Part shown: in pieces, positions 13,083 through 31,902 of the stretch
Numbering within the stretch: the stretch's first letter is position 1
Layout of the letters: every line of letters begins with the position of its first letter
Source: Mumia sp. ZJ1417
GTDB lineage: Bacteria > Actinomycetota > Actinomycetes > Propionibacteriales > Nocardioidaceae
Assembly (NCBI RefSeq): GCF_014127285.1
Contig: NZ_CP059901.1
Location: forward strand, 3,410,001-3,474,000
Direction: 5' to 3'
Length of the DNA: 64,000 nt
Position numbers and translations under genes: made by a program
The notes under the pieces: generated by a model
Database searches by the model: none
Told to the model about the DNA's origin: nothing
What the model saw: only the letters and a program-made list of their open reading frames with translations

Positions 13083-16553
<3,471 letters not shown>

Positions 16554-16893
16554 GAGGGGTCCTTCCAGAAGGCTCGCAGTTCCCGGGTTGCGGCACCGAC
16601 CGAACCCATGCCAAATCACCCAGGTCAAGGGGTGAGTGGGCAGAGTGCAGGCAGCGCAAAGAATGAGTCTAGACGTCAACCCGGGCAGATTTCAACCCAG
16701 GGAGTCAAGCCTTCGCCGTCGATGATGAACGCATCTGGGGCTCAGGTCAAGCAGCCGGGCGGTTCGGACGGGGGTGTCGTGCCGGAACCTCCCGGGAACA
16801 CAGGGCGGGGAACGGGCGTTGCGGCGCCCGTGTCACCCTGGATGTGACATTCGTTACCCCGTGCCGACGGGGCGTGGCTACCGAGGAGGGATC
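16554..16893. promoter_or_regulatory. Divergent rpoB/sortase intergenic region
   Basis: This 340-base gap holds the rpoB leader (about 105 bases) and promoter, and the upstream region of the sortase gene. An inverted repeat TGTCAC-N7-GTGACA lies at 16831-16849, 45 bases before the sortase start, and might be an operator. No credible coding sequence is seen. The rpoB leader contains an imperfect TCACCC/GGGTGA repeat. Confidence 0.5.
16666..16695 (-). promoter_or_regulatory. Putative rpoB promoter
   Basis: TTGAAA (16690-16695) and TAGACT (16666-16671) on the minus strand are 18 bases apart, giving a start near 16659. Confidence 0.55.
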
Positions 16894-17607
16894 GTGCCGA
16901 CGCAGACCACTCCACCGCGCCGCGAGCGCCCCGAGCTCAAGCCCACACCCCGCCTGCGGCCGACCCGGATGCTCGCCACGCTGCTGACGCTGGTCCTCGT
17001 CGCGAGTGCCGGCTGGTTCGCCTGGAAGTACATCGGCACCAACATCGTCGCGAAGCAGCGTCAGGGCGAGATGGCCGTCGCCCTCGCGGACGGCTGGCGC
17101 GACAACCGTCAGGGTGACGCGACCGAGGACGACCTGGAGATCGGCGAGGCGATGGCCGTCCTCCGGATCCCACGGTTCGGCAAGGACTTCGAGGTACCGG
17201 TGGTCGAGGGCGTCGACGACTCCGCACTCACCTCCGGCGTCGGCCACTTCCCGGACACCCAGCGCCCTGGGCAGCTCGGCAACTTCGCCGTGGCGGGGCA
17301 CCGCATCACCAACGGACAGCCGTTCAAGGACTTCCCTGACCTGCGGGCCGGCGACACGGTCTATGTGGAGACCCGTACGCATGTCTACACGTACGAGCTG
17401 CGCGGCTCCGGGACGGACACGATCGTCGACTTCTCCGACATCTGGGTGATCGCCCCGGTCCCCGAGAAGGCCAAGGACAGGCCCGGAGGGCGCTCCAAGG
17501 CCAAGCCCCGCGAAGCCCTCCTCACCCTGACGACGTGCTCGGAGATCTTCCACACCGATAACCGCTCGGTCGTCTTCGGGGAGCTCGTCTCCGCCGAGCA
17601 CGTCTGA
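16894..17607 (+). CDS. Class E sortase
   Basis: Sortases covalently attach surface proteins to peptidoglycan cross-bridges. The GTG at 16894 is chosen for the GGAGG upstream; it gives 237 residues. A cytoplasmic, Pro/Arg-rich N-terminus precedes a membrane anchor (about residues 26-44), followed by the extracellular beta-barrel. The catalytic triad is visible as His in FAVAGHRITNG, Cys in LLTLTTCSEIF and Arg in HTDNRSVVFGE. The TLTTC form with this layout is typical of class E, the housekeeping sortase of many actinobacteria. A likely substrate ending in LPATG, a helix and a basic tail is encoded at 28411-29439. The gene converges on the Mce operon with a 2-base gap. Confidence 0.9.
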   Translation: MPTQTTPPRRERPELKPTPRLRPTRMLATLLTLVLVASAGWFAWKYIGTNIVAKQRQGEMAVALADGWRDNRQGDATEDDLEIGEAMAVLRIPRFGKDFEVPVVEGVDDSALTSGVGHFPDTQRPGQLGNFAVAGHRITNGQPFKDFPDLRAGDTVYVETRTHVYTYELRGSGTDTIVDFSDIWVIAPVPEKAKDRPGGRSKAKPREALLTLTTCSEIFHTDNRSVVFGELVSAEHV

Positions 17608-17609
17608 CG

Positions 17610-18293
17610 TCAGGTCGTCGTCAGCTCCGCGACCAGCCAGCGGCCGTCGACCTTCTCCATCCGCACGATCGCCGAGAGCGCGGCCGGTGAGCCTGCCTTG
17701 CCGGCGACCGTACGGTGCTGGTCGACGAAGGCGAGGAGACGCACGCTCGACGTCGAGCACTCCTGTCCGCACCCGAGCGGCGCCACGGCGCGTACGGAGG
17801 CCGTGACGTCGATCTTGCGTTGCTCGGCCGCCGAGGCGACCTGGGGCGCGAGCTGCTCGTACTCCGCCGCGAAGTCGTCGGTCATCAGCTCTGTCGCCGC
17901 GGCGAGGTCGTCGGCGACGCTCGCATACCCATAGCTGAGCATCGTGACGAGGGCGGTCGACGCCTGCTCTGTCGCCGCGTCCTCCGCGTCGATCTGCCGC
18001 TGGGCGTCGCCCTCCACCTGCCGGACGGAGACCACGGCGATGACGGCGAACGCCACCGCGGCCACGGCCGCCAGACCGAGCCCGCTGAGGACGAGACGCG
18101 CACGGCCCGACAACGTCGGGCGAGGCTCCTTGGAGGGCTTGGTCGGCCGAGGAGGCCTGGCGCTCTTGGCCTGGGGGCCGGGCTCGGCGGGCGGCGGAGC
18201 CGTGCTCTCGGCCGCATCTGCCGCCTCGGCCGTCTCGGACGTCTCGGACGATCGCCGCTTCTCTCCCGCGATCCGGGGTCGTCGGTTGCTCAC
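17610..18293 (-). CDS. Mce-associated membrane protein (second)
   Basis: This is a 227-residue protein. The start is fixed by a GTGA overlap with the preceding stop and by GAGGAGG upstream. It has a long basic and Pro-rich cytoplasmic N-terminus, one membrane helix (about residues 65-90) and an extracytoplasmic domain of the SnoaL/NTF2-like fold usually seen in Mce-associated proteins. Two Cys residues in LGCGQECS may form a disulphide. In mycobacteria such proteins stabilise or assist Mce lipid importers. It is the last gene of the operon. The role is inferred from position and architecture. Confidence 0.8.
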   Translation of the reverse strand: MSNRRPRIAGEKRRSSETSETAEAADAAESTAPPPAEPGPQAKSARPPRPTKPSKEPRPTLSGRARLVLSGLGLAAVAAVAFAVIAVVSVRQVEGDAQRQIDAEDAATEQASTALVTMLSYGYASVADDLAAATELMTDDFAAEYEQLAPQVASAAEQRKIDVTASVRAVAPLGCGQECSTSSVRLLAFVDQHRTVAGKAGSPAALSAIVRMEKVDGRWLVAELTTT

Positions 18294-18847
18294 GAGCCGT
18301 CCTCCTCGCCCTGCTCCGAAGCCTCGGACTCCACCGGGATGTTGGCGAAGCTGTCGACGAGCCATTCGTCGCCGTCGCGGACGAGCGCGATGCGCCAGCG
18401 CAGCCGGGGCCGGCCGACCTGCACGTCGGCGGGCTCGGTCGCGACGTCGATCGCCGCGAGCACCTCAGCACTGTCGTCGTCGAGGCTGTCGACGGCGACC
18501 TGCTTGACCGTGCCCTTGGAGACGATGCCCGCCTCCTCGAACTTCGAGAGGAGGTCCTTGGTCGAGGCCTCGAACTGCGTCGCGAGGTCGTCGGTGAGCA
18601 GCGGACGCACGCGCGCGATGTATGGGTCGAGGTCCTTGACGTCGTAGGTGTTCACGCTGGTCGCGAACTTCTCCGCGGCCGCGCGCACGTCCGCCTGCGT
18701 GGCGGTGTCGGCGTACGCCGGGATCTGAGGCCCTCGTACGAGCGCGAGCACGCCGACCGCCACACCGGCCACAGCAACGAGGGCGAGGACGAGAGCGAGC
18801 AGGCGCGTGCGGCTCAGCGCGCGACCGCCGGTCCGAGCAGCATCCAC
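18290..18847 (-). CDS. Mce-associated membrane protein (first)
   Basis: About 185 residues, with an N-terminal membrane helix (residues 12-35) and an extracytoplasmic domain resembling other Mce-associated proteins. The domain ends with a strand pattern containing WRIALVRDGDEWLVDSF. I prefer the GTG at 18847, which has GGAGA 7 bases upstream; a GTG at 18853 is also in frame. Either start lies inside the 3' end of the last mce gene, implying translational coupling. It probably acts with the transporter at the membrane or wall; no enzymatic motif is seen. Confidence 0.8.
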   Translation of the reverse strand: MDAARTGGRALSRTRLLALVLALVAVAGVAVGVLALVRGPQIPAYADTATQADVRAAAEKFATSVNTYDVKDLDPYIARVRPLLTDDLATQFEASTKDLLSKFEEAGIVSKGTVKQVAVDSLDDDSAEVLAAIDVATEPADVQVGRPRLRWRIALVRDGDEWLVDSFANIPVESEASEQGEEDGS

Positions 18848-20085
18848 TTCCACGTCTCCTTCCCGAGATCAGGTGCGTCCGGGATCGTCGCGCCCGTCGC
18901 TGACACCTGCTTCGTCGCCACATCGTACGTTCCGAGCGTGACGCCCCCGTCCGTCCCGGCGTCGGAGGCCGGTGCGACGGTCGAGCCACCGGCGGCCGAG
19001 GCACTCCGTGGCTGCGCCTCGAGGCATCGGCGTGCCCTGTCCCACGTCTCCGGCGTACGGTCGAACGGTGTCCGCTGCTTGGCGCCTGACGCGTATCCCT
19101 TGAGGCACGGCGCGTTGTCGGGCTGCAGCGTCAGGCTGAGTCGCGCCGCGTACTGGCCGGTGCGCGAGTCCTGGGCGATGATCGAGAAAGCGCTCTCGAC
19201 GCCGTACGGGGCGATCACGAGCACGCCGCGCACCCCGTCGAGGTGCGAGACGACCACCTTGTTGAGCGTGATGGCGTGGTCGAGCAGCGAGGCGAAGTCG
19301 TCGGCGTTCTCGGCGATGACGGACCGCAGCGTCGCCGCGGTCGGGGCTCCGACGTCGAGGACCGTGCGCAGGTCGGCGTCGGACGTCCGCATCGCGGTGC
19401 TGAGGTCGCGGAGGTTCGTGGCGAACTCCACGATGTCGTCCTGGGAGTCGACCTGAGTCTCCAGGACCTTGCGCGAGTCACGGATCAGCGCGGCCGTCAC
19501 CTCGTACTTCTGGTCGGCGGTCGTGATGAACGAGCTGGTCGTGTCGATCAGCGTACGAAGATCGCCGGCCGAGCCCTCGAAGGCGTCACCCAGCTCAGTG
19601 ATGACGGTGCTGAGGTCGTCGGCGTCGACCGAGGTGAGGAACGCGTTGACGTCGGTGAGCAGCGTGCGGGTGTCGATCGGCACCTGCGTGCGGTCGCGGG
19701 CGATGACGTCGTCGGCCTCGAGGAACGGGGCGGCGTCGGAGTCCGGCTGGAAGTCGAGATACTGCTCGCCCACGGCCGACTTGTTGGCGACGACGACCTT
19801 CGTGTCGGCCGGGATGTCGGGCGAGGAGTGGTCGATGAGCACCTCGACGTCGACGCCGTCGCGGGTCAGCCACATGTCCTTGACCCGTCCCACGCTGACG
19901 CCCCGGTAGGTGACGTCGGCCCCGGTGAAGATGCCTCCGGACTCGGCCATCTCGACGACCACCGAGTAGCCGCCCCCTCCGAACAGGCGGTCGACGCGGG
20001 CGTACTTCGCCCCGACGAACGAGACACCGACGAGGGTCAGCACGAGGAACATGACCAGCTGGATGCGCATCCGACGGGTGATCAC
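18814..20085 (-). CDS. MCE-family protein, MceF position
   Basis: This is the sixth Mce protein of the operon, at 423 residues. One N-terminal membrane helix is followed by the MCE/MlaD domain (about residues 38-115). The core includes FTGADVTYRGVSVGRV and the VGEQYLDFQP segment. After it comes a long, predominantly helical region that in characterised systems forms the hydrophobic tunnel. Its C-terminal tail is Ser/Thr/Ala-rich. The start overlaps the previous stop as ATGA. It is expected to form a heterohexamer with the other five Mce proteins to move lipids or sterols toward the YrbE permeases. Confidence 0.9.
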   Translation of the reverse strand: MITRRMRIQLVMFLVLTLVGVSFVGAKYARVDRLFGGGGYSVVVEMAESGGIFTGADVTYRGVSVGRVKDMWLTRDGVDVEVLIDHSSPDIPADTKVVVANKSAVGEQYLDFQPDSDAAPFLEADDVIARDRTQVPIDTRTLLTDVNAFLTSVDADDLSTVITELGDAFEGSAGDLRTLIDTTSSFITTADQKYEVTAALIRDSRKVLETQVDSQDDIVEFATNLRDLSTAMRTSDADLRTVLDVGAPTAATLRSVIAENADDFASLLDHAITLNKVVVSHLDGVRGVLVIAPYGVESAFSIIAQDSRTGQYAARLSLTLQPDNAPCLKGYASGAKQRTPFDRTPETWDRARRCLEAQPRSASAAGGSTVAPASDAGTDGGVTLGTYDVATKQVSATGATIPDAPDLGKETWKWMLLGPAVAR

Positions 20086-21188
20086 GGAGTCACCACGCTC
20101 TCTGCCATGACCGCGCCGACACCGTCTCCGCGCAGCGCCTCCTTGAGGGACTTCAGCTCAGCCTCGGACATCAGCCCGATCGTCTTGGTGAAGTCGGTCC
20201 TGAAGTCCAGCGACACGTTGGTGTAGTCCCCCATCTGGTAGGCCGCTGCCTCACCCGGGCCGTCCCCGAGCAGGGAGTCGGGGAAGGGGAACGTCGGGAG
20301 CACCTCGAGCGACGAGATCAGCGCGTCACCGGCGGAGGCGAGGTTGTCGAGCACCGGCTCGAGCGCGTCGAGGTCGGCGGCGACCGCGTCCTTGGCGCGG
20401 ACGATCACGTCGGTGCCGACGCTGCCGAGGTCGGTGAGCGCCTCGAGCATGCGGACGAGGTTGGCGCGCTGAGCGTTCACGGTGCGCAGTGCCTCGGGCA
20501 TATCGTCGAGGGCGCCTTCGATCGCCTTGCGCTGCGACCTCGTCGCCTTCGCGAGCTGGTCGACCTGCTCGATCGCCGTCACGATCTCGGCCCTGGACTC
20601 CTCGGCCGTCCCGACGAACTCGTCGAGGCGCCGCACCAGCGTGCGCATGTTGGCCTCACGGCCCGACATCGCGTTGTTGAGCTCGCGCGCGATGACCTGC
20701 ACCTTGTCGACCGCTCCCCCGTTGAGCACGAGGGAGAGCGCGCCGAGCACCTGCTCGACCTCGGGCGTGTGGCCGGTACGGGCGAGGGGGATCCGGTCGC
20801 CGTCCGACAGCTGCCCGGTCGACCCGGTCGCCGGCGGCGCCAGCGAGACGAACTTCTCGCCGAGGATGCTGGTCTGCCGGATGGACGCCATAGCGTTGTC
20901 GGGCAGCTCCACCGAGTCGTTGACCTCGAGCTCCACCTTGGCCTGCCAGCCGTCGAGCTCCACTCGGGTGACGCGTCCGACGGAGACGTCGTTGACCTTG
21001 ACGGCGCTCTGCGGCACCAGGTCCATCACGTCGTCGAACTCGACGACGACCGTGAACGGGGCGTCGCCGAGGTCGGCACCGCCAGGGAGCGGGAGGTCAC
21101 CGACGTTGCCGCTCCCGCACCCGGTCACGAGCGCGAGACCGGTGAGAGCGGCCGCCGCCGCGGTCCAGCGGTTCCTGGCTCGCGTCAT
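20082..21188 (-). CDS. MCE-family lipoprotein, MceE position
   Basis: This 368-residue protein has a lipoprotein signal ending in LVTGC, as is usual for the fifth protein of Mce operons (LprK-like). The MCE domain spans about residues 45-125, with QSAVKVNDVSVGRV and ILGEKFVSLAPP, followed by the helical extension. The start ATG at 21188 overlaps the upstream stop (ATGA), which rules out the longer reading frame. It should be lipid-anchored outside the membrane and contribute one subunit to the Mce ring. Confidence 0.92.
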   Translation of the reverse strand: MTRARNRWTAAAAALTGLALVTGCGSGNVGDLPLPGGADLGDAPFTVVVEFDDVMDLVPQSAVKVNDVSVGRVTRVELDGWQAKVELEVNDSVELPDNAMASIRQTSILGEKFVSLAPPATGSTGQLSDGDRIPLARTGHTPEVEQVLGALSLVLNGGAVDKVQVIARELNNAMSGREANMRTLVRRLDEFVGTAEESRAEIVTAIEQVDQLAKATRSQRKAIEGALDDMPEALRTVNAQRANLVRMLEALTDLGSVGTDVIVRAKDAVAADLDALEPVLDNLASAGDALISSLEVLPTFPFPDSLLGDGPGEAAAYQMGDYTNVSLDFRTDFTKTIGLMSEAELKSLKEALRGDGVGAVMAESVVTP

Positions 21189-22360
21189 GACGCCACTCCC
21201 ATCAGTGCGGCGAGCCCGTCGGTCGACGCCGTCGAGGAACCCTTGGCCTGCTTCTCCATCCACGAGACGACCTCGCCGAGCGCATAGCAGGCCTCGCGGT
21301 ACTTCGGGTTCTGGTTGGCCGCGAGACCGCAGTACGCCGAGACGTACGCCGCATCGGTGAGCGTACGGAACCGGCCGTCGCGCTTGCCCTTGATGGTGGC
21401 GCGGGTGTCGATGGCTCCCGTCGTGGGGTTGTACGCGGTGGCGAGGTTGGCGAGCGCATGCGGGCCCTTGTCAAGGATCCGCGCGAGGTTCTTGCGCTCC
21501 TTCGCCAGCGACTCCGTCACGTCGGCGAGCCCGTCGACGTTCTTGCGCAGGCTCGTCCGGTTCTCGGCGACATAGCTCTGCACCGAACCCAGGGCACCCG
21601 CGAGCTCGCGCAGCGCGGCCTGAAGGTCGTCGCTCTCTCCGGCGAGCACGTCCGAGACGGCCGCCAGACTGCTGTTGAACGTACGGACGGAGGCGTCGTT
21701 CTGCTCCAGCGCCTCGACGAAGGTCGCGATCTTCTCCATCGACGAGAACAGCTCGTCCTTTGACCCGTCGACGGTCGTCGTCAGCTTCGCGAGGGCGTCG
21801 ATGCTGCGCCTGATCTCGACGCCCTTGCCGTCGAGGTTCTCCGCGCTCGTCGCCAGCAGGTCACCGAGCGCGCCGTTCGCGTTGGCGCCGTCCGGGCCGA
21901 GCGCGGTCGCGACCCGATCGAGGGCCTCGAACGTCTCGTCGAGCTCGGTGGGGGTCGCCGAGCGAGTCTGGTCGAGGTGCGTGCCGTCGGCGAGCTTCGC
22001 GCCACCGGAGTAGGCGGGCGTGAGCTGCACGAAGCGGTCGCCGACCACCGAGGGCGACACGATCACGGCAGACACGTCGGCGGGCACGGCGTACTCGGCG
22101 TCCCAGGAGAGCCGGACACGGACCTTCGTACCGCGCGGGGTGATCGTGTCGACGGTGCCGACGTCGACCCCGAGGATGCGGACCTTCGAGCCTTCGTAGA
22201 GCGACACCGTACGGTCGAAGTCGACGGTCAGCGTGTGCTTCTGCGAGCGCGGGATCAGCACCACGACCAGCGCGGCGACGAGGCCGAGGACGAGGAGGCC
22301 GACCACGACCTCGACCGCGCGGCGCGAGGCCCTCGGGCCACGCTCGACAGTGGCCGTCAC
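21185..22360 (-). CDS. MCE-family protein, MceD position
   Basis: This is a 391-residue Mce subunit. The GTG at 22360 is chosen because it overlaps the preceding stop (GTGA) and has GGAGG upstream. It has one membrane helix near residues 17-40, an MCE domain (about 42-120, containing YEGSKVRILGVDVGTV and VVGDRFVQLTPAY), then a long helical region with heptad-like patterning. Two Cys in the C-terminal part (AAYVSAYCG and REACYALG) may pair. It is part of the lipid-import ring; substrate is unknown. Confidence 0.9.
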   Translation of the reverse strand: MTATVERGPRASRRAVEVVVGLLVLGLVAALVVVLIPRSQKHTLTVDFDRTVSLYEGSKVRILGVDVGTVDTITPRGTKVRVRLSWDAEYAVPADVSAVIVSPSVVGDRFVQLTPAYSGGAKLADGTHLDQTRSATPTELDETFEALDRVATALGPDGANANGALGDLLATSAENLDGKGVEIRRSIDALAKLTTTVDGSKDELFSSMEKIATFVEALEQNDASVRTFNSSLAAVSDVLAGESDDLQAALRELAGALGSVQSYVAENRTSLRKNVDGLADVTESLAKERKNLARILDKGPHALANLATAYNPTTGAIDTRATIKGKRDGRFRTLTDAAYVSAYCGLAANQNPKYREACYALGEVVSWMEKQAKGSSTASTDGLAALMGVAS

Positions 22361-23340
22361 AGTCCCTCCTCCAGTCCGAGGATGCTCAGCAGGTTGTAGA
22401 CGAAGCCCTCGAGCCACGGACCGTTGCCGCTGTTGCTGGCGACCATCGCGTAGTAGGCGGGGAGCTGCTCCATCGCCGCGCTGATGTTCTTCTCGTTGCG
22501 CTGCAGCACCTTGACGACGCCGGCCAGCCGGTCGAGCGCGGGCTTGAGGTCGTCGCGCGTGTCGGCGACGAGCTTCTCGATCTCGTCGGACATGCGGGTG
22601 ACGCCCACGAGGACATCGTGGATCGCTTCGCGCCGGGCCGTGAGCGCGTCGAAGAGCACACCGCCGTCCTCGAACAGGGACACGACCTCGGTGTTGCGGT
22701 CGGCGAGCACGCCGGAGATGCCGTCGATGTTCTTGAGGAGCGTCTTGATCTCCGCGTCGCGGGCCGCGAGGTTCTCGGAGAGCTCGGTGACCCCCTTGAC
22801 CGCCTTCTGGAACTCCTCGGGCGTCTTGGCAGTGACCTCGCCGAAGGTCTTCATCGCGTGCGCGAGCTGGTCGGTGTCGATCTCCTGCGTCGTCTCGCTG
22901 AGCCCGGAGAACGCCTGCACGATGTCGTACGGCGGTGTCGTCCGCGAGGCGGGGATCAGCGCCCCTTCCTCCAGCGTGCCGGACCCAGCGGACTCGAGGC
23001 TGACGTACATCGCCCCGAGCAGGGTCTTGATGCGCACCGACGCGCCCGTCTCCTTGCCGAGGCGCTCGCGCTCGTCCTTCACACGGAAGACGACGCGCAC
23101 CTTGTCGCCCCGGAGCTCGAGGTCGTCGACCTTGCCGACGAGGACGCCGGACATCCGGACGTCGTCGCCCTTCTTGAGCCCGCCGACCTCGGTGAACTCA
23201 GCGGCGTACGTCGGGCCGCTGCCGACCAGCGGCAGCGAGCCGGCCTGGCTGGCCAGGACGAGGACGAGGGCGATGAGCAGCACGCCGACCGCGCCGACGG
23301 CGACGGGGTTGCGCTCGCGGAACGGCTTCATCCTGCGCAT
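22357..23340 (-). CDS. MCE-family protein, MceC position
   Basis: This is a 327-residue Mce subunit, the shortest of the six. I start at the ATG at 23340, which has GGAG 7 bases upstream and overlaps the preceding gene by 13 bases; an in-frame ATG at 23331 is the alternative. An N-terminal membrane helix precedes the MCE domain, with KKGDDVRMSGVLVGKV and LLGAMYVSLESAG, and an alpha-helical tail. It lacks the Pro/Ser-rich C-terminal extension of MceA. Confidence 0.9.
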   Translation of the reverse strand: MRRMKPFRERNPVAVGAVGVLLIALVLVLASQAGSLPLVGSGPTYAAEFTEVGGLKKGDDVRMSGVLVGKVDDLELRGDKVRVVFRVKDERERLGKETGASVRIKTLLGAMYVSLESAGSGTLEEGALIPASRTTPPYDIVQAFSGLSETTQEIDTDQLAHAMKTFGEVTAKTPEEFQKAVKGVTELSENLAARDAEIKTLLKNIDGISGVLADRNTEVVSLFEDGGVLFDALTARREAIHDVLVGVTRMSDEIEKLVADTRDDLKPALDRLAGVVKVLQRNEKNISAAMEQLPAYYAMVASNSGNGPWLEGFVYNLLSILGLEEGL

Positions 23341-24434
23341 CGGCTCACTCCTGACCCTGTGACGGTGACGCGCTTCGTCGTCTTGAACGGTCGGGCCTTC
23401 TCCCACCCGGGCACGCCGCTGAGCGACGGCAGCCTGCCGTCGATGCCGACGTCGCACACATAGAAGTTGAAGAACGAGCCGTACTCCGTCGTACGCCCGA
23501 TCCGGTCGATCTTGATCGGCAGGATCTTGAGGGTGCTGTCGAGCGCCTTGCGTGCCTTCTTGGTGCCGATCGCGTCGGTGAGATCGCGCAGGTGCGCGAT
23601 GTCGGACGTCAGGTCGGGCCGGATCTCGGTGAGCAGACCGGCGGTCTCGGTGCTCAGCGCGGCGATGTCGTCGAGCGACCCGGTGAGCACGCCGCGGTCG
23701 TCCTTGAGACCCGACACGAGCTGCTGCAGCGTCGAGATCGTCGACGACAGCTCGGTGTCGCGCGCGTTGAACGACGTGAGGACCGCGGTGAGGTTGGAGA
23801 TGACCGAGCCGATCAGGTCGTCGCGGTCCGCGAGCGTCTGCGTGAGCGAGGCGGTGTGCCCGAGCAGCGACTCGACCGTGCCGCTCTCCCCCTGGAAGAC
23901 CTGGATCAGCTCGTACGCGAGCTGGTTGGTGTCGTCCGGCGACAGCGCCTGGAAGAGCGGCTTGAACCCCGCGAACAGGACGGTCAGGTCGAGGGCGGGC
24001 TGGGTCCGCGCGAGCGGGATGGTCGAGCCCGGCTGGAGGCGCGCTGACGAACCCTCCGGTCCCTCGGACAACGAGAGGTAGCGCTGCCCGATCATGTTGC
24101 GGTAGCGCAGCGACGCCAGCGTGCTGTGGGTCAGCGTCACCCCCTCGTCGACGGTGAACGTCACCTCGGCGGTGGAGTCGGAGTCGACCCGCACCTCCGA
24201 GACGTTGCCGACCCGGACGCCGGCGATGCGGACGTCGTCACCCTTGACGAGGCTCGTCACGTCAGCGAAGACCGCCTTGTAGGTCTTCGTCGACAGGAAC
24301 GAGACGTTGCCGATGATCACCGCGAGCATCGCCGTGAGGATGCCGGTCACCACCAGGAAGAGGAGCAGTCGCCCGAGCGCGCCCGCCGTACGGCGGTCGA
24401 GCCTGGGGTCGCGCCTGCGTCGACGCTTGGTCAT
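23328..24434 (-). CDS. MCE-family protein, MceB position
   Basis: This is a 368-residue Mce subunit starting at ATG 24434, which overlaps the MceA stop (ATGA). A strongly basic N-terminus (TKRRRRRDPRLDRR) and a membrane helix precede the MCE domain (about residues 50-125, with VKGDDVRIAGVRVGNV and MIGQRYLSLSEG). The C-terminal half is helical and carries FNFYVCDVGIDGRLP, a segment common in MceB proteins. It belongs to the same coupled string of genes and probably the same hexamer. Confidence 0.92.
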   Translation of the reverse strand: MTKRRRRRDPRLDRRTAGALGRLLLFLVVTGILTAMLAVIIGNVSFLSTKTYKAVFADVTSLVKGDDVRIAGVRVGNVSEVRVDSDSTAEVTFTVDEGVTLTHSTLASLRYRNMIGQRYLSLSEGPEGSSARLQPGSTIPLARTQPALDLTVLFAGFKPLFQALSPDDTNQLAYELIQVFQGESGTVESLLGHTASLTQTLADRDDLIGSVISNLTAVLTSFNARDTELSSTISTLQQLVSGLKDDRGVLTGSLDDIAALSTETAGLLTEIRPDLTSDIAHLRDLTDAIGTKKARKALDSTLKILPIKIDRIGRTTEYGSFFNFYVCDVGIDGRLPSLSGVPGWEKARPFKTTKRVTVTGSGVSRCAG

Positions 24435-25747
24435 CCGATCGTCACCTCCGCTCCGCGAAGCACGGGGCCGGCCAGGGCCTGCGCCACCGACGGCACCTCG
24501 TCGGGCTCGACACCGAGGGCCCCGGCCATCAGCGCCTCGATCTGTGCACGCTCGGACGGCGAGCCGGCCGGGGTCGACCCGCTGGGCGCGACCAGCGGCC
24601 GGTCCTTGCCGAGCGGGCCCCCGATGCCGAGCTGGCGCAGAAGCGCGTTGCTCATGCCGGGCGCGGGAGTCGTCGCGTCGTACGACGTCTTGGGGAGGGT
24701 CGCGCAGGTCGGGTCGAGCGCACTGCTGCCCCCGCTGGCCGGCGGGAGGCTCGCGGCATCACCCTTGTCGTACGCCCGCGGCGAGCGCGCCGCGAACTCC
24801 ACCATGACGTGGGCACGGTTGTCCCGGAACGCCGAGTCGATGCGCGGCATGAGCCGGTCGACGCCCTTGAGGACGCAGCCGATCGTCGGCGCGTAGTCGG
24901 CGAGCAGCTCCAGCGTCGGCCGCGACTGCTTGGACAAGGTGATGAAGTCCTCGCCGGTCTTGTCGAAGAACGCGTCCGCAGTCGTCGCGAACGCGGCCGT
25001 CTCGGTGAAGAGCGCCTGCAGCTGGGCCTTGCGGCCGGTCAGCGTGTTGCCGGTGACCACGGCGTTGCGCAGCGTCTCGCCGATCTCCGGCATCACGTCG
25101 GCGTACGTCTGCGCGGTCTCGCCGAGCAGCGTGATGTCCTCGACGATGCGGGGCGCCAGCGGGGTGATCTTCTGGAGGTAGCCCTCGAGCGTCTCGAGGC
25201 TCTCGCCCAGCGCCTCGCCCTGTCCGTCGAGCGCCTCGGACAGCGCCGTGAGGGTGTACGAGAGGTCGACAGGGTTCAGCGCGGTGAGGATCGGGTCGAG
25301 ATCGATGAGGAGGTTCTCGACGTCGGTCGGCAGGTCGGCCTGTGTGAGGACGTCACCGGCCTCGATCGGCGTCCCCGCAGATCCGGCGACCGGCTGCAGG
25401 TCGACGAACTTCTCGCCGAAGAGCGTCTTGGGCACGATCAGGGCTTCCACGTCCGAGGGGATGAGCCTCTGGTAGTCGGGGTCGATCCGCAGGTGGATCG
25501 TCGCGCGGCCCGCGTCGGAGGTGATCTCCTGGACCCGGCCGACGATCACGCCGCGCAGCTTCACGTCGGAGTTGCGGTTGAGCTGGAGACCGGCGCTCTC
25601 GCTGCGGATCGTGACCGGGAGGTCTCCGGAGAACTTCTTGGTGAACACCGCGTAGGTCAGGTAGACCGCGGAGAGCATCAGCACGAGCATCAGCACGCCG
25701 AGCGTGCGGACGGTGCCCGTCTTGTCGAGGGTGGACGTGCGTGCCAT
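24431..25747 (-). CDS. MCE-family protein, MceA position
   Basis: This is the first Mce protein of the operon, at 438 residues. The start ATG at 25747 shares its A with the TGA of the second YrbE gene, which rules out the longer open frame. It has one membrane helix (residues 12-32), an MCE domain (about 38-115, including NRNSDVKLRGVIVGRV and LFGEKFVDLQPV), the helical barrel region, and a Pro/Ser/Gly-rich C-terminal tail of about 90 residues. It is expected to be a subunit of the lipid/sterol importer. Confidence 0.92.
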   Translation of the reverse strand: MARTSTLDKTGTVRTLGVLMLVLMLSAVYLTYAVFTKKFSGDLPVTIRSESAGLQLNRNSDVKLRGVIVGRVQEITSDAGRATIHLRIDPDYQRLIPSDVEALIVPKTLFGEKFVDLQPVAGSAGTPIEAGDVLTQADLPTDVENLLIDLDPILTALNPVDLSYTLTALSEALDGQGEALGESLETLEGYLQKITPLAPRIVEDITLLGETAQTYADVMPEIGETLRNAVVTGNTLTGRKAQLQALFTETAAFATTADAFFDKTGEDFITLSKQSRPTLELLADYAPTIGCVLKGVDRLMPRIDSAFRDNRAHVMVEFAARSPRAYDKGDAASLPPASGGSSALDPTCATLPKTSYDATTPAPGMSNALLRQLGIGGPLGKDRPLVAPSGSTPAGSPSERAQIEALMAGALGVEPDEVPSVAQALAGPVLRGAEVTIG

Positions 25748-26574
25748 CAGCCGGCCAACCTCACCGTCGTCGTCGTGCCCCAGATCGCCATCGACATCAG
25801 CAGGTCGACCACGTTGATCATGACGATCGACGTCCGCACCGCACGGCCGACGGCGACGCCGACGCCGACGGGGCCGCCCGAGGCGAAGTAGCCGTAGTAG
25901 CAGTGGATGAGGATGACGACGACGGCGAAGACCATCACCTTCACGAACGACCACAGCACGTCCTCCGGCGGGAGGAACAGCGTGAAGTAGTGGTCGTACG
26001 TGCCGGTGCTCTGGCCGAAGACCCAGGTGACCGTCAGCCGCGTCGCGAAGTACGAGGCCAGCAGGCCGACGACGTACAGGGGGATGATCGCGGCGAGTCC
26101 GGCGATCACACGGGTCGTCACGAGGTATGGCAGCGACGGGATCGCCATCACCTCGAGGGCGTCGACCTCCTCGGAGATGCGCATCGCGCCCAGCTGCGCG
26201 GTGAAGCCGCAGCCGACCGTCGCCGCGAGGGCGATGCCTGCGACGAGCGGCGCGATCTCGCGGGTGTTGAAGTACGCCGAGAAGAAGCCGGCGAACGCGC
26301 TGGTGTCCAGCTGCTCGAGCGCGGTGAAGCCCTGCAGGCCGACCTCGGTGCCGGTGAAGAACGACATCGCCGTGATCACGCCGACGGTGCCGCCGATGAC
26401 GGCGAGCGCCCCTTGACCGAAGGTCACTTCCGCGAGCAGGCGCAAGACCTCACGCGGATAGTGGACAAGCGTGCGCGGGACCCAGGCCAGGACCCGCAGG
26501 TAGAACGCGAGGTGGCGTCCGAGCGCGTCGATCCCGCCGAGCGGACGGCGAGAGAGCTCCCTCACGTCGGCCAC
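25747..26574 (-). CDS. YrbE/MlaE-family permease B
   Basis: This is the second of two MlaE-type integral membrane permeases, 275 residues with five to six hydrophobic segments. The conserved central loop reads GAMRISEEVDALEVMAIPSLPYLV, which contacts the ABC ATPase. The GTG start at 26574 lies one base after the previous stop. With YrbEA it should form the transmembrane part of the Mce ABC transporter. The short ending TTTVRLAG is typical. Confidence 0.93.
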   Translation of the reverse strand: MADVRELSRRPLGGIDALGRHLAFYLRVLAWVPRTLVHYPREVLRLLAEVTFGQGALAVIGGTVGVITAMSFFTGTEVGLQGFTALEQLDTSAFAGFFSAYFNTREIAPLVAGIALAATVGCGFTAQLGAMRISEEVDALEVMAIPSLPYLVTTRVIAGLAAIIPLYVVGLLASYFATRLTVTWVFGQSTGTYDHYFTLFLPPEDVLWSFVKVMVFAVVVILIHCYYGYFASGGPVGVGVAVGRAVRTSIVMINVVDLLMSMAIWGTTTTVRLAG

Positions 26575-26575
26575 G

Positions 26576-27355
26576 TCACAACGCCTTCGCCGGGACGAGC
26601 TGGATGTAGAGCGCGCTCATCACGAAGTTGGCCAGGAACAGCAGCAGGAAAGTGATGACGACCGACTCGTTGACCGCCTGACCGACGCCGCGCGGACCAC
26701 CGTCGGCGTGCATGCCCTTGTACGAGGCCACGATCGCGGCGATGAAGCCGAACACCAGCGCCTTGGCCATGCCCTGCCAGAGGTCCGGCAGCTGGGCCAG
26801 GGCGGTGAAAGAGGCCAGGTAGGCGCCCGGCGTGCCGCCCTGGAGGATGACGTTGAAGAAGTAGCCGCCGAGCACGCCGACGACGCTGACCAGGCCGTTG
26901 AGGAAGACCGCGACGAGCATGCACGCCAGCACCCGCGGGACGACGAGGCGCTGGATCGGGTCGATGCCCAGCACCATCATGGCGTCGAGCTCCTCGCGGA
27001 TCTTGCGCGCGCCGAGGTCAGCGGCGATCGCCGAGCCGCCGGCCCCGGCGACGAGCAGCGCCGTCGCGATCGGACCCGCCTCACGGACGACCGCGAGCAC
27101 GGCCGCCGAACCCGTGAAGGACTGCGCGCCGAACTGCTGGATCAGGCTGCCCGCCTGCAGGGCGATGACCGCTCCGAACGGGATCGCGACCAGCGCGGTC
27201 GGGATGATCGTCACCGACGCGATGAACCACGCCTGCTGGATGAACTCGCGCAGCTGGAAGGGTCGCCGGAACACGCCCACGACGACGTCCGCGCCGAAGG
27301 CGAACAGCCTGCCGAAGATCGCGAGAGGCGTCGTGAGGACGGTGACCGCACTCAC
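26576..27355 (-). CDS. YrbE/MlaE-family permease A
   Basis: This is the first MlaE-type permease, 259 residues. The GTG at 27355 overlaps the ATPase stop (GTGA), excluding the longer frame. Conserved features are QLREFIQQAWFIAS, AREAGP-like VREAGPIATALLVAGAGG and the coupling-loop segment KIREELDAMMVLGIDPI. It pairs with YrbEB and the MceG-like ATPase to energise lipid uptake. Confidence 0.93.
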   Translation of the reverse strand: MSAVTVLTTPLAIFGRLFAFGADVVVGVFRRPFQLREFIQQAWFIASVTIIPTALVAIPFGAVIALQAGSLIQQFGAQSFTGSAAVLAVVREAGPIATALLVAGAGGSAIAADLGARKIREELDAMMVLGIDPIQRLVVPRVLACMLVAVFLNGLVSVVGVLGGYFFNVILQGGTPGAYLASFTALAQLPDLWQGMAKALVFGFIAAIVASYKGMHADGGPRGVGQAVNESVVITFLLLFLANFVMSALYIQLVPAKAL

Positions 27356-28341
27356 GCAGCACCCCCGGACGAGACCGGGTCGTGGACGCGCAGCGGGTGG
27401 GGCGACAGCGGATCGTCCAGGAAGGAGCCGGGAGGAGGGGTCACACCGTTGGCGGCACACCACGCGCCCGGCGGCGCCTGCGTCGGGCGCGGGCGCCCGT
27501 CGGTCGGCAGCAGCTGGAGCGGGATCGGCGGCAGCGCGGGCAGGGTGCTGTGGTCCTCCAGCGCCAGCTCGTCGGCGTCCTTCTCTTCGCTCATGCCGAT
27601 CGGGCCGACCGTCTGCGCGTTGAGGAACTGCCGGACGGCAGGCTCCTCGCTCGACAGCAGCATCTCGCGGGGCCCGAACATCGCCAGGTGGCGGTGGAAG
27701 AGCAACCCGATGTTGTCCGGGACCGTCCGCGCGGTGTTGATGTCGTGCGTGACGATGAGGAAGGTCGCCTCGATCTGGGCGTTGAGGTCGACGATCAGTT
27801 GGTTGATGAAAGCCGTACGCACCGGGTCGAGGCCGGAGTCGGGCTCGTCGAAGAGCACGATCTCCGGCTCCAGCACGAGGGCGCGGGCAAGTCCTGCGCG
27901 CTTGCGCATGCCGCCGGAGATCTCTGCGGGCAGCTTGCCCTCGGCACCGACGAGACCGACCATCGTCATCTTCTCCATGACGATCTCGCGGATCTCGGTC
28001 TCGGACTTGCGGGTGTGCTCGCGCAGCGGGAAGGCGACGTTGTCGAACAGCGTCATGGAGCCGAACATCGCGCCGTCCTGGAAGAGGACCCCGAACAGCT
28101 TGCGGATCTCGTACAGATCACGCTCGCTGCATGTCGCGATGTCGGTGCCCTCGATGAAGACGTGCCCCTCGTCGGGCTTCAGCAGGCCGATGAGGGCCTT
28201 GAGGAACACGGACTTTCCGGTGCCGGACGGTCCGAGCATGACGCTGATCTCCCCTGCGGGCAGGGTGAGCGACACGTCACGCCAGATCGTCTGCTTGCCG
28301 AAGGACTTCGTCAGACCTTCGACGCGTACCTCGACTCCCAT
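27352..28341 (-). CDS. Mce transporter ATP-binding protein (MceG/Mkl-like)
   Basis: This is the ABC ATPase of the Mce importer, 329 residues. Walker A is GPSGTGKS at residues 37-44, the signature is ISGGMRKRAGLARAL, Walker B is EIVLFDEPDSGLDP and the H-loop is LIVTHD. A C-terminal extension of about 80 residues, rich in Pro and Leu, follows the nucleotide-binding domain, as in MceG. In mycobacteria the single MceG (mkl) gene also lies in the rplL-rpoB interval but apart from any mce operon; here it heads a complete one. The gene begins 69 bases after the surface-protein gene. Confidence 0.95.
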   Translation of the reverse strand: MGVEVRVEGLTKSFGKQTIWRDVSLTLPAGEISVMLGPSGTGKSVFLKALIGLLKPDEGHVFIEGTDIATCSERDLYEIRKLFGVLFQDGAMFGSMTLFDNVAFPLREHTRKSETEIREIVMEKMTMVGLVGAEGKLPAEISGGMRKRAGLARALVLEPEIVLFDEPDSGLDPVRTAFINQLIVDLNAQIEATFLIVTHDINTARTVPDNIGLLFHRHLAMFGPREMLLSSEEPAVRQFLNAQTVGPIGMSEEKDADELALEDHSTLPALPPIPLQLLPTDGRPRPTQAPPGAWCAANGVTPPPGSFLDDPLSPHPLRVHDPVSSGGAA

Positions 28342-28410
28342 GTGCGGGACTCCTTCGGGGGGACGAGCACCTCGGCCAGCGGGGTGCCACGGAAGGGCGT
28401 GGTGACCGCG

Positions 28411-29439
28411 TCAGGCGGTCTTGGCCCGGCGACGTGTCCGGACGGCGAGCGCGATGCGTGCGGCGGCTACGAGGCCGAGCAGCCCCACGAGCCCGACGCC
28501 GACCGGAGAACCGGTCGCCGGCAGCGAGGTCGTCGTGTACGGCGCGACGCCCCCGTCGTCGTCATCGTCGTCGTCATCATCGGAACCACCGTTGCCCCCC
28601 GGCGAGGTGGAGTCGGTGTTCTTGGGCGGGTCGATCACCGGCGGATCCTCACCGCCGCCGCCGCCACCCCCGTTGCCGTCGCCGTCCCCTCCGCCGGGGG
28701 AACCTCCGACGGTGGGCAGCGGGCACTCCGACTCCTCGCACCCGTCGCCGACAGGGATGGTGCCGATCACGCGCGCGGCGCGGGTGTCGAGGTTGCGGAC
28801 GCAGTTGAGCTCGGTCTCGGCGATGGCACCCAGCACCGGCGGGTCGAGCTTTGCCTGGATCTTGAACGTCTTCGGCATCTGGACGTAGATCAGGCCACCG
28901 GTGACACCGTCGGGCAGCTCAGGGACGGTGACCGCGTCGACAGTGCCCTTGGCAGGGATGAGGAGCGAGCCCGAAGCAGGCACCGGGACCATAGGAGAGC
29001 TGAGGCCGCGGACCTGCGGCTCGAGGGTGGCGGCGACATCGCCACCGGGCACCACGCCCTGCAGGAGCACGGTGGAGGTCGCACCGCCGCCGACCTTGGT
29101 CACCAGCATGATGTCGCGAATCCGTGTGACCAACTTCGCCGGCAGGATGAGGTCGAGCTCGGCCGGAGTCTCAGCGATCGCGTCGCCCGCCACCACAGTG
29201 TCGGGCAGCGAGGTCCGCGCGTTCACGAGGAACTGCTGCGGACCGCCCAGCGAGGTGTTGATGATCTCGTTGTCCGACTCGCAGGTGTAGCCGACCTGGT
29301 TGAGCGAGACAGACTGCGCGGCACCGGCGACAGGCGCTAGCCCGACCTGCATGCCTCCCACGACCAGTCCCGCGGCGGCCATCAGACCTGCACCTCGATG
29401 CCATCCGACCTGACGACGTGCGACAGCGCTCACGCGCAT
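28411..29439 (-). CDS. LPATG-type cell-wall-anchored protein, Mce operon leader
   Basis: This 342-residue exported protein has a signal peptide cleaved after about residue 40 (APVAGA) and a globular domain of about 190 residues with two to four Cys. It looks like the DUF6801-type domain, by memory only. A Gly/Asp/Pro-rich linker (with a run of nine Asp near 287-295) leads to a sorting signal: LPATG at 306-310, a hydrophobic helix, and the basic tail RTRRRAKTA. It should be attached to peptidoglycan by a sortase such as the one at 16894. It is the first gene of the Mce operon, with GGGAGGGAG before its ATG. Function is unknown; an envelope partner of the lipid importer is a reasonable inference. 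Confidence 0.85.
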   Translation of the reverse strand: MRVSAVARRQVGWHRGAGLMAAAGLVVGGMQVGLAPVAGAAQSVSLNQVGYTCESDNEIINTSLGGPQQFLVNARTSLPDTVVAGDAIAETPAELDLILPAKLVTRIRDIMLVTKVGGGATSTVLLQGVVPGGDVAATLEPQVRGLSSPMVPVPASGSLLIPAKGTVDAVTVPELPDGVTGGLIYVQMPKTFKIQAKLDPPVLGAIAETELNCVRNLDTRAARVIGTIPVGDGCEESECPLPTVGGSPGGGDGDGNGGGGGGGEDPPVIDPPKNTDSTSPGGNGGSDDDDDDDDDGGVAPYTTTSLPATGSPVGVGLVGLLGLVAAARIALAVRTRRRAKTA

Positions 29440-29645: not shown

Positions 29646-29685
29646 ACAGACGGGCACCCCTCCCGAAGGAGGGGTGCCCGTCTGT
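29646..29685 (-). terminator. rplJL terminator with U-tract
   Basis: A perfect 18-bp stem with a 4-base loop sits 25 bases past the rplL stop and is followed on the minus strand by CTTTTC. This is the most canonical intrinsic terminator in the window, and it separates the ribosomal genes from the Mce operon. Confidence 0.95.
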
Positions 29686-29710: not shown

Positions 29711-30100
29711 TCACTTGAGGGTGATGGTGGCGCCGGCGGCCTCGAGGGCCTCCTTGGCCTTGTCCGCGGCCTCCTTGTTGACGCCCTCGAGGATCGCCTT
29801 GGGGGCGCCCTCGACGAGGTCCTTGGCCTCCTTCAGGCCGAGGCTCGTCAGAGCGCGCACCTCCTTGATGACCTGGATCTTCTTGTCGCCGGCCGACTCG
29901 AGGACGACGTCGAACTCGTCCTTCTCCTCGACAGCGGCGTCAGCCGCGCCGCCACCAGCGGCGGGAGCGGCGGCAACCGCGACCGGAGCGGCGGCGGTGA
30001 CGTCGAAGGTGTCCTCGAACTGCTTGACGAACTCGCTGAGCTCCAGGAGGGTCATCTCCTTGAAAGCGTCGAGCAGGTCCTCGGTGCTGAGCTTCGCCAT
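29711..30100 (-). CDS. rplL: 50S ribosomal protein L7/L12
   Basis: L7/L12 forms the ribosomal stalk that recruits translation factors. It has 129 residues: an N-terminal dimerisation domain (about 1-33), an Ala/Pro/Gly-rich hinge (about 38-57) and the globular C-terminal domain with [20 protein letters not shown]. It follows rplJ by 56 bases and is closed by the terminator at 29646-29685. Confidence 0.98.
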
Positions 30101-30156: not shown

Positions 30157-30741
30157 CTAGCCCTCGGAGCCCTCGGCCGCAGCCGGGGCTTCTTCGGTCT
30201 CGGCGGGAGCCGAGGTTGCGGGAGTCTCCTGCTCGACCTTGGCCTGCAGGGCACCCACGGCACGTGCTGCCTGAGCAAGCGGTGCCTGGAACAGAGCGGC
30301 GGCCTTCGAGAGGTTCGCCTTCATGCCGCCCGCGAGCTTGGCGAGGAGGACCTCGCGCGACTCGAGGTCAGCAAGCTTCGTGATCTCGGCAGCATCGAGC
30401 GCCTTCCCCTCGAGGAAGCCACCCTTGATGACGAGCTTGTCGTTCGCCTTGGCGAAGTCACGCAGACCCTTGGCGACCTCGACCGGATCGCCCTTGATGA
30501 AGGCGATGGCGGTCGGGCCGTTGAGGAGGTCGTCGACGCCGTCGACGCCGGCCTCGCGGGCCGCGATCTTGGTCAGCGTGTTCTTGGCCACGGCGTAGTT
30601 GACGTTCTCACCGAGCGAGCGGCGCAGGTCCTGCAGCTGCTTCACGGTGAGACCGCGGTACTCGGTCAGCACAGCGCCGTTGGAGCTGCGGAACTCGTCC
30701 GTCAGCTCGGCAACCGCTGCGGCCTTGTCCGGTCGCGCCAT
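30157..30741 (-). CDS. rplJ: 50S ribosomal protein L10
   Basis: L10 anchors the L7/L12 stalk dimers to 23S rRNA. The ATG at 30741 with AGGAG upstream gives 194 residues beginning [17 protein letters not shown]. The N-terminal RNA-binding domain and the C-terminal helix that binds L12 are followed by an Ala/Glu-rich tail. The longer open frame upstream covers the regulatory leader and is not coding. Confidence 0.97.
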
Positions 30742-31014: not shown

Positions 31015-31827
31015 TCAGCCGCCCATCATCGACGAGCCGTCGACGACCTGGCCGGCCGGGGGCGCGGTGATCTCGACGTCCTCGCCCCACTTGGTGAAGG
31101 TCATCTCCATCGGGATCTGGGCCACATCCATGACGACCTTGCGCGGGAGGTCATCAGGGCCGACCCAGTATTCGTAGGTGATCTCGGCGGGCAGCTGCGC
31201 TGCTGCAGCCGCCTCCATGCCGGCGATCTTGGACGTGTCGACGACGACGTCGTAACGGCTGGCCTCGACGCCGTCGATGGTCTCGGTCTGTCCGGTCGCC
31301 GTCACGGACTTGAGCGCGTCCTTGAGGTTCTCGATGCTCTTGGTCGGATCCATCGAGTCGCGCAGCTGGCCGAACGACTCGCCTGCGGCACCCGCGGCGG
31401 CGTCGAGGGAGAGCTTCATCCACTTGCCCTCGGGCATGCCCGGCGCCTTCATGTAGAGCGCGCCGTCGACAAGCGTCATCTCGATGCTCTGTCCGCTCGC
31501 GTCCATCGTCATGCGCATCGCCGTCTTGCTCGGGTCGCTGTCGGTGATGACATCGGCCTCGGCGTCGATCTTCTGGCCTGCCGCCTCCATCGAGATCGTC
31601 ATGTGCGCCGACCTCGCGTCCGTCTGGGCGCCGCCGAGCGTGTCGGCGAAGTTGGCCGAGGTGAGCTCGGTCGCTCCCTCGTCCGACGACCCGCCCTGCG
31701 ACGAGGTCGAGGGGGTGGCGCCGGCGCCGCCGTCGCCGCCGTCGGCGACGTCCGCGCTGCTCCCGCAGCCGGCGGTGAGTGCGAGGGCGAGAGCCGCGAC
31801 AGCGGCCGAGATCGTTCGGGTACGCAT
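31015..31827 (-). CDS. LppX/LprAFG-like lipoprotein
   Basis: This 270-residue lipoprotein has a signal ending in the lipobox LTAGC, a Gly/Ser/Asp-rich linker, and a domain resembling LppX/LprG lipoproteins. That family forms a half-barrel with a hydrophobic cavity for lipids. The domain contains repeated amphipathic strands and a WVGPDDLPRKVVMDV segment. I chose the ATG at 31827, with GAGGTAG upstream, over an in-frame start at 31866. A lipoprotein between rplA and rplJ also occurs in other actinobacteria as I recall. It has no obvious connection to ribosome function; a role in lipid handling is an inference. Confidence 0.8.
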   Translation of the reverse strand: MRTRTISAAVAALALALTAGCGSSADVADGGDGGAGATPSTSSQGGSSDEGATELTSANFADTLGGAQTDARSAHMTISMEAAGQKIDAEADVITDSDPSKTAMRMTMDASGQSIEMTLVDGALYMKAPGMPEGKWMKLSLDAAAGAAGESFGQLRDSMDPTKSIENLKDALKSVTATGQTETIDGVEASRYDVVVDTSKIAGMEAAAAAQLPAEITYEYWVGPDDLPRKVVMDVAQIPMEMTFTKWGEDVEITAPPAGQVVDGSSMMGG

Positions 31828-31863
31828 GACGACCACGCTACCTCGTGCATGGTTCGTCAGACG

Positions 31864-31902
31864 CACAGACGCCGCATCCCCTGTGGGGAGGCGGCGTCTG
31901 TG
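31864..31902 (-). terminator. rplKA terminator
   Basis: A perfect 12-bp stem (CACAGACGCCGC and complement) continues past one mismatch into a 5-bp stem with a 3-base loop. It lies 36 bases beyond the rplA stop. Confidence 0.88.

Follow-up and report, generated by a model that had tools for sequence, protein, structure and literature searches.

The interval between rplL and rpoB in Mumia sp. ZJ1417 was examined in a stretch of 64,000 nucleotides (the window; contig NZ_CP059901.1, positions 3,410,001 to 3,474,000, with coordinates below counted from its first base), and was found to hold a complete operon for a predicted Mce lipid importer headed by its own ATPase gene, mceG. In Mycobacterium tuberculosis, the import of fatty acids and cholesterol is driven by MceG, whose gene stands by itself among ribosomal-protein and RNA-polymerase genes, remote from every mce operon. 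Comparison across the class Actinomycetes makes it very probable that the rplL–rpoB interval has been the home of an operon of the mce6 class from an early point in the history of the class, and that the orphan MceG of mycobacteria was left behind at this locus.

An mce6-class operon between rplL and rpoB in Mumia

Genes in the window were identified from a listing of open reading frames (ORFs) with translations and from Pfam and NCBIfam profile scans. The minus strand between rplL and rpoB carries, in transcription order, genes for a DUF6801 protein, MceG, YrbEA, YrbEB, MceA to MceF and two small Mce-associated proteins. The features of the region, with the evidence for each, are:

30157–30741, minus strand: rplJ (L10), upstream flank; translation, also a query in locus annotation
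29711–30100, minus strand: rplL (L7/L12), upstream flank of the interval; translation and RplL search
29646–29685, minus strand: intrinsic-terminator-like hairpin after rplL, 18 pairs (13 G-C) and a T-rich tail; hairpin scan
28411–29439, minus strand: predicted secreted DUF6801 protein with an LPATG sorting-type tail and a beta-rich domain at about residues 42–232; Pfam, alignment and predicted structure
27352–28341, minus strand: MceG (Mkl), ATP-binding cassette (ABC) ATPase, head of the transporter operon; Pfam, NCBIfam, best solved relative 8fed_G, tree
26576–27355, minus strand: YrbEA permease, with a GTG start at 27355 (placed by eye) overlapping the mceG stop; Pfam, tree
25747–26574, minus strand: YrbEB permease; translation, Pfam
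24431–25747, minus strand: MceA; Pfam, NCBIfam
23328–24434, minus strand: MceB; PF02470 search
22357–23340, minus strand: MceC; PF02470 search
21185–22360, minus strand: MceD; PF02470 search
20082–21188, minus strand: MceE, with a lipoprotein-like N-terminus (by eye); PF02470 search
18814–20085, minus strand: MceF; Pfam, NCBIfam
18290–18853, minus strand: Mce-associated protein 1; weak, sub-cut-off similarity to the Rv0361 family
17610–18293, minus strand: Mce-associated protein 2; position
16774–17607, plus strand: class E sortase, convergent with the operon and lying between it and rpoB; Pfam, NCBIfam
16666–16750, minus strand: two promoter-like sites upstream of rpoB; promoter scan
13083–16559, minus strand: rpoB, downstream flank; translation and RpoB search

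The complete Mce set (ATPase, two YrbE, six Mce and two Mce-associated proteins) that the initial annotation had placed in the interval was borne out by the ORFs and the profile scans, which assigned one ABC ATPase, two MlaE/YrbE permeases and six MCE proteins to it. MceA and MceF, the two of the six Mce proteins that were scanned, exceed the TIGR00996 cut-off, and the MlaD domains of all six were found with E-values of 1.4e-16 or better in a whole-genome PF02470 search. The first Mce-associated protein scored 24.6 bits against the Rv0361 family, below the cut-off of 37, and the second matched no Pfam or NCBIfam family above cut-off and is named by its position. The outermost gene, at the right-hand boundary (29439), is not the ATPase gene and encodes the DUF6801 protein; this gene and the convergent sortase gene are additions to the earlier gene list.

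Start/stop overlaps, described earlier as running throughout, hold for nearly all junctions. The DUF6801 gene is separated from mceG by 69 bp and one later junction has a 1 bp gap, the spacings after the first being −4, +1, −1, −4, −13, −4, −4 and −4 bp, then −7 to −40 bp, according to which start is taken for Mce-associated protein 1, and −4 bp, so that most lie between −1 and −13 bp. An Mkl/MceG-type ATPase directly upstream of yrbEA, followed by the second YrbE and then six MCE-domain proteins, is the arrangement of a mce6-class transporter, and the operon is predicted to encode an active lipid importer of this class with its own MceG. In the nearest named relatives of this 4.19 Mb, single-contig genome, which are Mumia species, MceG is 96 and 92% identical and the gene order is the same, including the DUF6801 and sortase genes.

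Position of MceG across Actinomycetes

A sample of 148 genomes of the class was searched for MceG (E<=1e-70), RplL and RpoB, and interval positions were established from coordinates and by annotating retrieved stretches with tblastn. Of these genomes 52 have MceG, and in 47 of the 52 it lies in the rplL–rpoB interval; a later local insertion, which the initial annotation had offered as an alternative, was rejected on this count. Placement was scored from the rplL–MceG distance in 45 of the 47, from the rpoB side only in G058, and from a partly N-masked MceG in G039, where a broken mceG in three fragments had first been read.

In 30 of the 47 genomes, MceG is followed by yrbE and mce genes. These genomes fall into ten family-level groups (f1, the Nocardioidaceae, and f4, f9, f11, f12, f14, f20, f28, f30 and f35), and as the same gene order is found in all ten, a chance arrangement is not at issue. 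MceG is alone in the interval in 16 genomes (six of f4g6, G027, all five of f13, three of f15, and G066 of f1), and G060, which ends at a contig edge, is not scorable for this state. The group f4g6 is taken to be Mycobacterium, as RpoB of its member G003 scored 2418–2428 bits against full-length chains of the 5tw1 and 5uh5 groups, presumably mycobacterial, and 1984 and 1979 bits against 8dy7 and 7vpd, presumably from Streptomyces. The initial annotation had noted an orphan MceG (mkl) in this interval of mycobacteria, and MceG is alone there in the six f4g6 genomes. Four genomes of the same family, f4, carry the operon there (G092, G102, G112 and G122); RpoB of G092 (g29) scored 2315 bits against 5tw1.

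MceG lies outside the interval in five of the 52 genomes, namely four of f17, which is Streptomyces-type by RpoB (one tested, G050), and G089, in which the whole block from the DUF6801 gene to the sortase gene is sited elsewhere. G079 has 337 bp between rplL and rpoB, with no MceG and no YrbEA match.

Both states occur in named relatives of Mycobacterium. In Nocardia farcinica NCTC11134 the order is rplJ-rplL-MceG-YrbEA-YrbEB-MceA to MceF-Mas1-rpoB, consistent with the mce6 operon in the relevant passages of Casali & Riley (PMC1810536), and Tsukamurella tyrosinosolvens is annotated as rplJ-rplL-ABC ATPase-rpoB-rpoC, with MceG only. MceG is likewise alone in Nonomuraea gerenzanensis. A scan with Mumia MceG gave 80 named loci, mostly from Nocardioidaceae, with rplL upstream in 71 and YrbEA next to MceG in 76. 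Among the nine without rplL, two are DUF6801 blocks and four are Nocardioides operons; in the other three, an additional copy of MceG follows an operon which we take to be of the mce4-like class. No description of the common rplL–rpoB position of MceG or the mce operon was found among the matches listed in searches of the open-licence PMC literature.

Some further MceG records were seen. The extra interval-type MceG (81–82%) downstream of a mce4-like operon occurs in Nocardioides and Aeromicrobium (L110, L130 and L131), and the Nocardioides mce operons that include MceG and lack rplL within 10 kb upstream (L087, L090, L113 and L115) are relocated or rearranged. The plasmid collection holds 28 records with MceG, mostly from Rhodococcus; Mycobacterium avium plasmid pP7a (L265) carries MceG with no adjoining annotated mce genes, and plasmid-labelled records that include rplJL and rpoB (L263, L264 and L266) are probably mislabelled chromosome pieces. 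MceG of the record Streptomyces sp. SID13031 (L157) groups with Kribbella, and the isolate is probably misnamed.

Phylogeny of MceG and YrbEA

Family-level groups were recovered in a quick MceG tree (96 rows), in a careful MceG tree (59 rows, after removal of fragments of <250 residues, outgroup rows on long branches, near-duplicates and the majority of the named Nocardioidaceae) and in a YrbEA tree (82 rows). In the careful tree, mycobacterial MceG is monophyletic (100/99), next to the interval MceG from the remaining f4 genera, and the Mumia interval MceG groups with the Mumia and Aeromicrobium-type block (100/99) inside the Nocardioidaceae types. Mkl is not closest to the Mumia interval ATPase, and both descend from the same locus. 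The initial annotation had suggested that the Mumia locus may show the ancestral arrangement from which the orphan ATPase was left behind, and had proposed an MceG phylogeny and a comparison of the interval as a check. Both support this suggestion, since the flanks agree, mycobacterial MceG is placed with interval MceG from the family to which Mycobacterium belongs, and N. farcinica has the full operon in the interval occupied by mkl.

YrbEA of the four f4 interval operons forms one clade (99), at 67–69% to Mumia YrbEA, within an interval-type group that also holds f17 rows and has an overall support of only 83. The 13 YrbEA taken from three f4g6 genomes lie in separate clades, the best at ~50% to Mumia YrbEA. 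In this tree the Mumia operon groups by its YrbEA with Nocardia/Streptomyces-type operons and not with the mycobacterial classes; the N. farcinica copy was compared by tblastn only, outside this tree. As mycobacterial MceG groups with interval MceG and mycobacterial YrbE belong to other classes, the mycobacterial interval operon was lost and not relocated. This agrees with Casali & Riley (PMC1810536), who found no mce6 operon in mycobacteria.

Parsimony on the rpoB tree requires at least 5 operon/orphan events among 37 rows. As judged from these sequence comparisons, the position is conserved, grouping is by family as in vertical descent, and MceG-alone states recur at the same place.

A second six-mce operon in the Mumia genome (C1:1135726-1144436) has its own MceG-like ATPase, 63% identical to the interval MceG. 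This operon (L009, G000:C1:1131000-1150000) was probably acquired laterally, as it groups with Streptomyces and Mycobacterium-family types.

Loss of the operon and probable use of MceG in trans

One genome shows the loss directly. G066 (Nocardioides-type, f1, in the same genus group as G137) aligns with its sister genomes across rplJL and MceG, the homology ending at the end of mceG and restarting ~110 bp before rpoB, with 227 bp where G137 has ~10.4 kb. This is a clean ~10.4-kb deletion of the operon that left MceG in place, and was seen once.

All 16 genomes with an orphan MceG have YrbE matches elsewhere in the genome, and 13 of them have a single MceG-like ATPase. No adjacent ATPase was found at the three distant mce operons inspected in these genomes (L256, L257 and L262). 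Mycobacterial MceG is known to work for Mce1 as well as Mce4, with which it co-purifies (PMC9882608) and both of which it stabilises (PMC9947336).

An MceG-headed mce6-class operon that settled between rplL and rpoB early in the evolution of the class would have supplied an MceG that became the shared motor of ATPase-less mce operons elsewhere in the genome. Once MceG served in trans, the adjoining yrbE and mce6 genes would have been dispensable and MceG retained; because it was already shared, the interval MceG would not have been losable. The distribution of these states is observed, and function in trans outside Mycobacterium is the step that we infer. The orphan MceG of Mycobacterium (Mkl, Rv0655) would then have arisen by loss of the neighbouring operon genes. 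Where no mce operon was left, MceG would have been lost too, and where the operon moved, MceG would have moved with it.

Age of the locus and alternative explanations

In a sample of 198 genomes of the phylum, MceG was found in 29, of which 19 lie outside Actinomycetes, and in none of the 16 of these 19 in which RplL was found is MceG near rplL. MceG-YrbE-YrbE-Mce operons are present in several out-of-class genomes (f36, f44 and f72), and their location away from rplL indicates that the ATPase-headed operon is older than its residence between rplL and rpoB.

Several observations weigh against long residence and vertical descent in the interval. No MceG was found at the cut-off in 96 of the 148 class genomes. 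Those that branch first within the class in the rpoB tree are among them, which leaves the time of insertion uncertain, and the move into the interval may postdate those branches. At least 12 changes into or out of the interval are required among 78 rows (parsimony, rpoB tree), and therefore either many losses or several gains or transfers. The whole f4 MceG clade has only moderate support (83/56), and f4 MceG, Streptomyces-type MceG and the second Mumia MceG form a strongly supported clade (100/99), which shows transfers of whole operons. Deep branching in the MceG and rpoB trees is weakly supported and differs between the two, and the family identities of the genome groups rest on RpoB or on named relatives.

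The operon could have spread laterally, the conserved rplL and rpoB flanks serving as recombination arms, so that a common position would not mean common descent. The patchy presence with its changes of position and the disagreement of the MceG and rpoB trees at deep nodes would fit such a history, as would the clear transfers of operons, since the G128 operon, like the second Mumia operon, groups with Streptomyces/f4 types. However, the family-level groups in the MceG and YrbEA trees are those expected under vertical descent and the rpoB tree shows no disturbance of the flank at the family level, making lateral spread an unlikely account of the common position. A recent insertion in the Mumia lineage, independent of the mycobacterial mkl locus, is more improbable still. 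Such blocks do move, since in Aeromicrobium-type genomes the DUF6801/sortase block sits, in one piece, at sites not next to rplL (L068 and L080, and L081 without a visible sortase gene), but the operon has the same place and orientation in other Nocardioidaceae, Kribbella, Terrabacter, N. farcinica and further family-level groups, and Mumia MceG lies inside the Nocardioidaceae-type clade. It is equally hard to credit that MceG entered the interval alone and that mce genes were later brought to it. Several groups (f13, f15 and Mycobacterium) do have MceG alone, but the same gene order behind MceG would need repeated assembly, MceG-headed operons already exist outside the class, and G066 shows the opposite step, by deletion. 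An ancestral operon in the interval, reduced to MceG in some lineages, remains the preferred explanation.

The DUF6801 protein and sortase

The Mumia locus is not an unmodified ancestor, as the DUF6801 and sortase genes are additions seen only in Mumia and some Aeromicrobium-type genomes. The Mumia protein matches DUF6801 (Pfam, E 1.7e-27) and has a signal-peptide-like N-terminus and a C-terminal LPATG, hydrophobic segment and RRR tail (the tail by eye). LPATG is invariant in all five aligned Mumia/Aeromicrobium-type proteins and is missing from three Streptomyces-type DUF6801 proteins. With a signal peptide, LPxTG motif, hydrophobic segment and positive tail, the protein has the features of an LPxTG-type sortase substrate and is predicted to be anchored. 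The gene convergent with the end of the operon encodes a class E sortase (NF033747, 191 bits; cut-off 160), whose true start is probably inside the ORF at 16774–17607.

DUF6801 was found in nine of the 148 class genomes, seven of which also have MceG, and in five of these seven the two genes are within ~2 kb (G000, the genome of the Mumia window, and G089, G035, G076 and G106). A structure predicted from an alignment of five sequences is beta-rich, with a predicted local distance difference test score (pLDDT) of around 90 or higher across most of residues 42–232. Foldseek gave no match to this model in the PDB at E<=0.001; a second structural comparison ranked 3lso_A, a putative membrane-anchored protein of Corynebacterium diphtheriae, first (Z 10.8, root-mean-square deviation 3.1, 152 aligned; next row 5.7). 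This likeness suggests a beta-rich surface-protein fold, with no function implied. No mention of DUF6801 was found in the open-licence PMC literature, where the one paper listed for mce genes together with a sortase concerns a Rhodococcus equi genome.

Blocks of DUF6801-MceG-YrbE-Mce genes away from rplL (L068, L080 and L081, the sortase gene being visible in the first two) are closely related to that of Mumia. The careful MceG tree places G089 and A. flavum as sisters of the Mumia group and the YrbEA tree nests them inside it (86); with the two trees differing on this point, transfer of the block from Mumia into Aeromicrobium is likely, though not established. The DUF6801 surface protein and sortase are probably a later accessory travelling with the Mce block. 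It is conceivable, though we hold it only tentatively, that Mumia and some Aeromicrobium have a self-contained uptake island, in which an exported DUF6801 protein, fixed to the cell wall by the sortase from the opposite end of the block, hands lipid to the Mce tube, and that the whole DUF6801-MceG-YrbE-Mce-Mas-sortase block moved between genera.

Flanking genes and transcription

The initial annotation had stated that the operon cuts rpoB off from rplJL transcription. A strong terminator-like hairpin does follow Mumia rplL (29685–29646), and three promoter-like sites were found in the whole scanned region against 0.5 expected, two of them preceding rpoB. In a scan for hairpins followed by T after rplL (shuffled control ~3% on named loci), candidates were found whether or not the interval holds MceG, including in 10 of 32 class genomes in which it does not. 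As such hairpins are present where nothing is inserted, the predicted separation of rpoB is not a consequence of the operon, and a special separation by the insertion was discarded. Mumia, Aeromicrobium and several further genera share a gene for an SCO4651-family lipoprotein between rplA and rplJ (31015–31866, minus strand, in the window).

Comparison with known systems

The Mumia operon corresponds to mce6 of N. farcinica and Streptomyces, which in the passages of PMC1810536 on these operons has MceG/Mkl upstream of yrbEA, two yrbE, six mce and downstream mas genes (nfa51100 and nfa51090-51020 in N. farcinica). The N. farcinica operon occupies the same rplL–rpoB interval, whereas the four Streptomyces-type mce6 copies in the sample are away from rplL, and Mumia differs from both in its extra DUF6801 and convergent sortase genes. 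The same passages place mkl upstream of mce6 operons and mycobacterial mkl in a ribosomal-protein region, and do not compare the interval.

The transporter architecture is that of the mycobacterial Mce1 and Mce4 importers with their shared orphan MceG (PMC9882608, PMC9947336). In those the ATPase is unlinked from the operons, unlike in Mumia, and the YrbE class is different. The best solved relative of Mumia MceG is chain 8fed_G, an MceG-GFP chimera matched over residues 1–263, which we take to be from M. smegmatis. An MlaF-like ATPase, MlaE permease and MlaD domains are common to this operon and the Gram-negative phospholipid transporter MlaFEDB, but Mumia has six different Mce subunits in place of one MlaD.

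The comparison offers a reason for the lone position of mycobacterial MceG, in that the site would be the home of an operon that was lost around its shared motor. It also gives a rule, by which an orphan MceG is retained only in genomes that still have a further mce operon, and the natural pairs of orphan and operon sister genomes would allow the sharing of one ATPase by several lipid importers to be tested outside pathogens.

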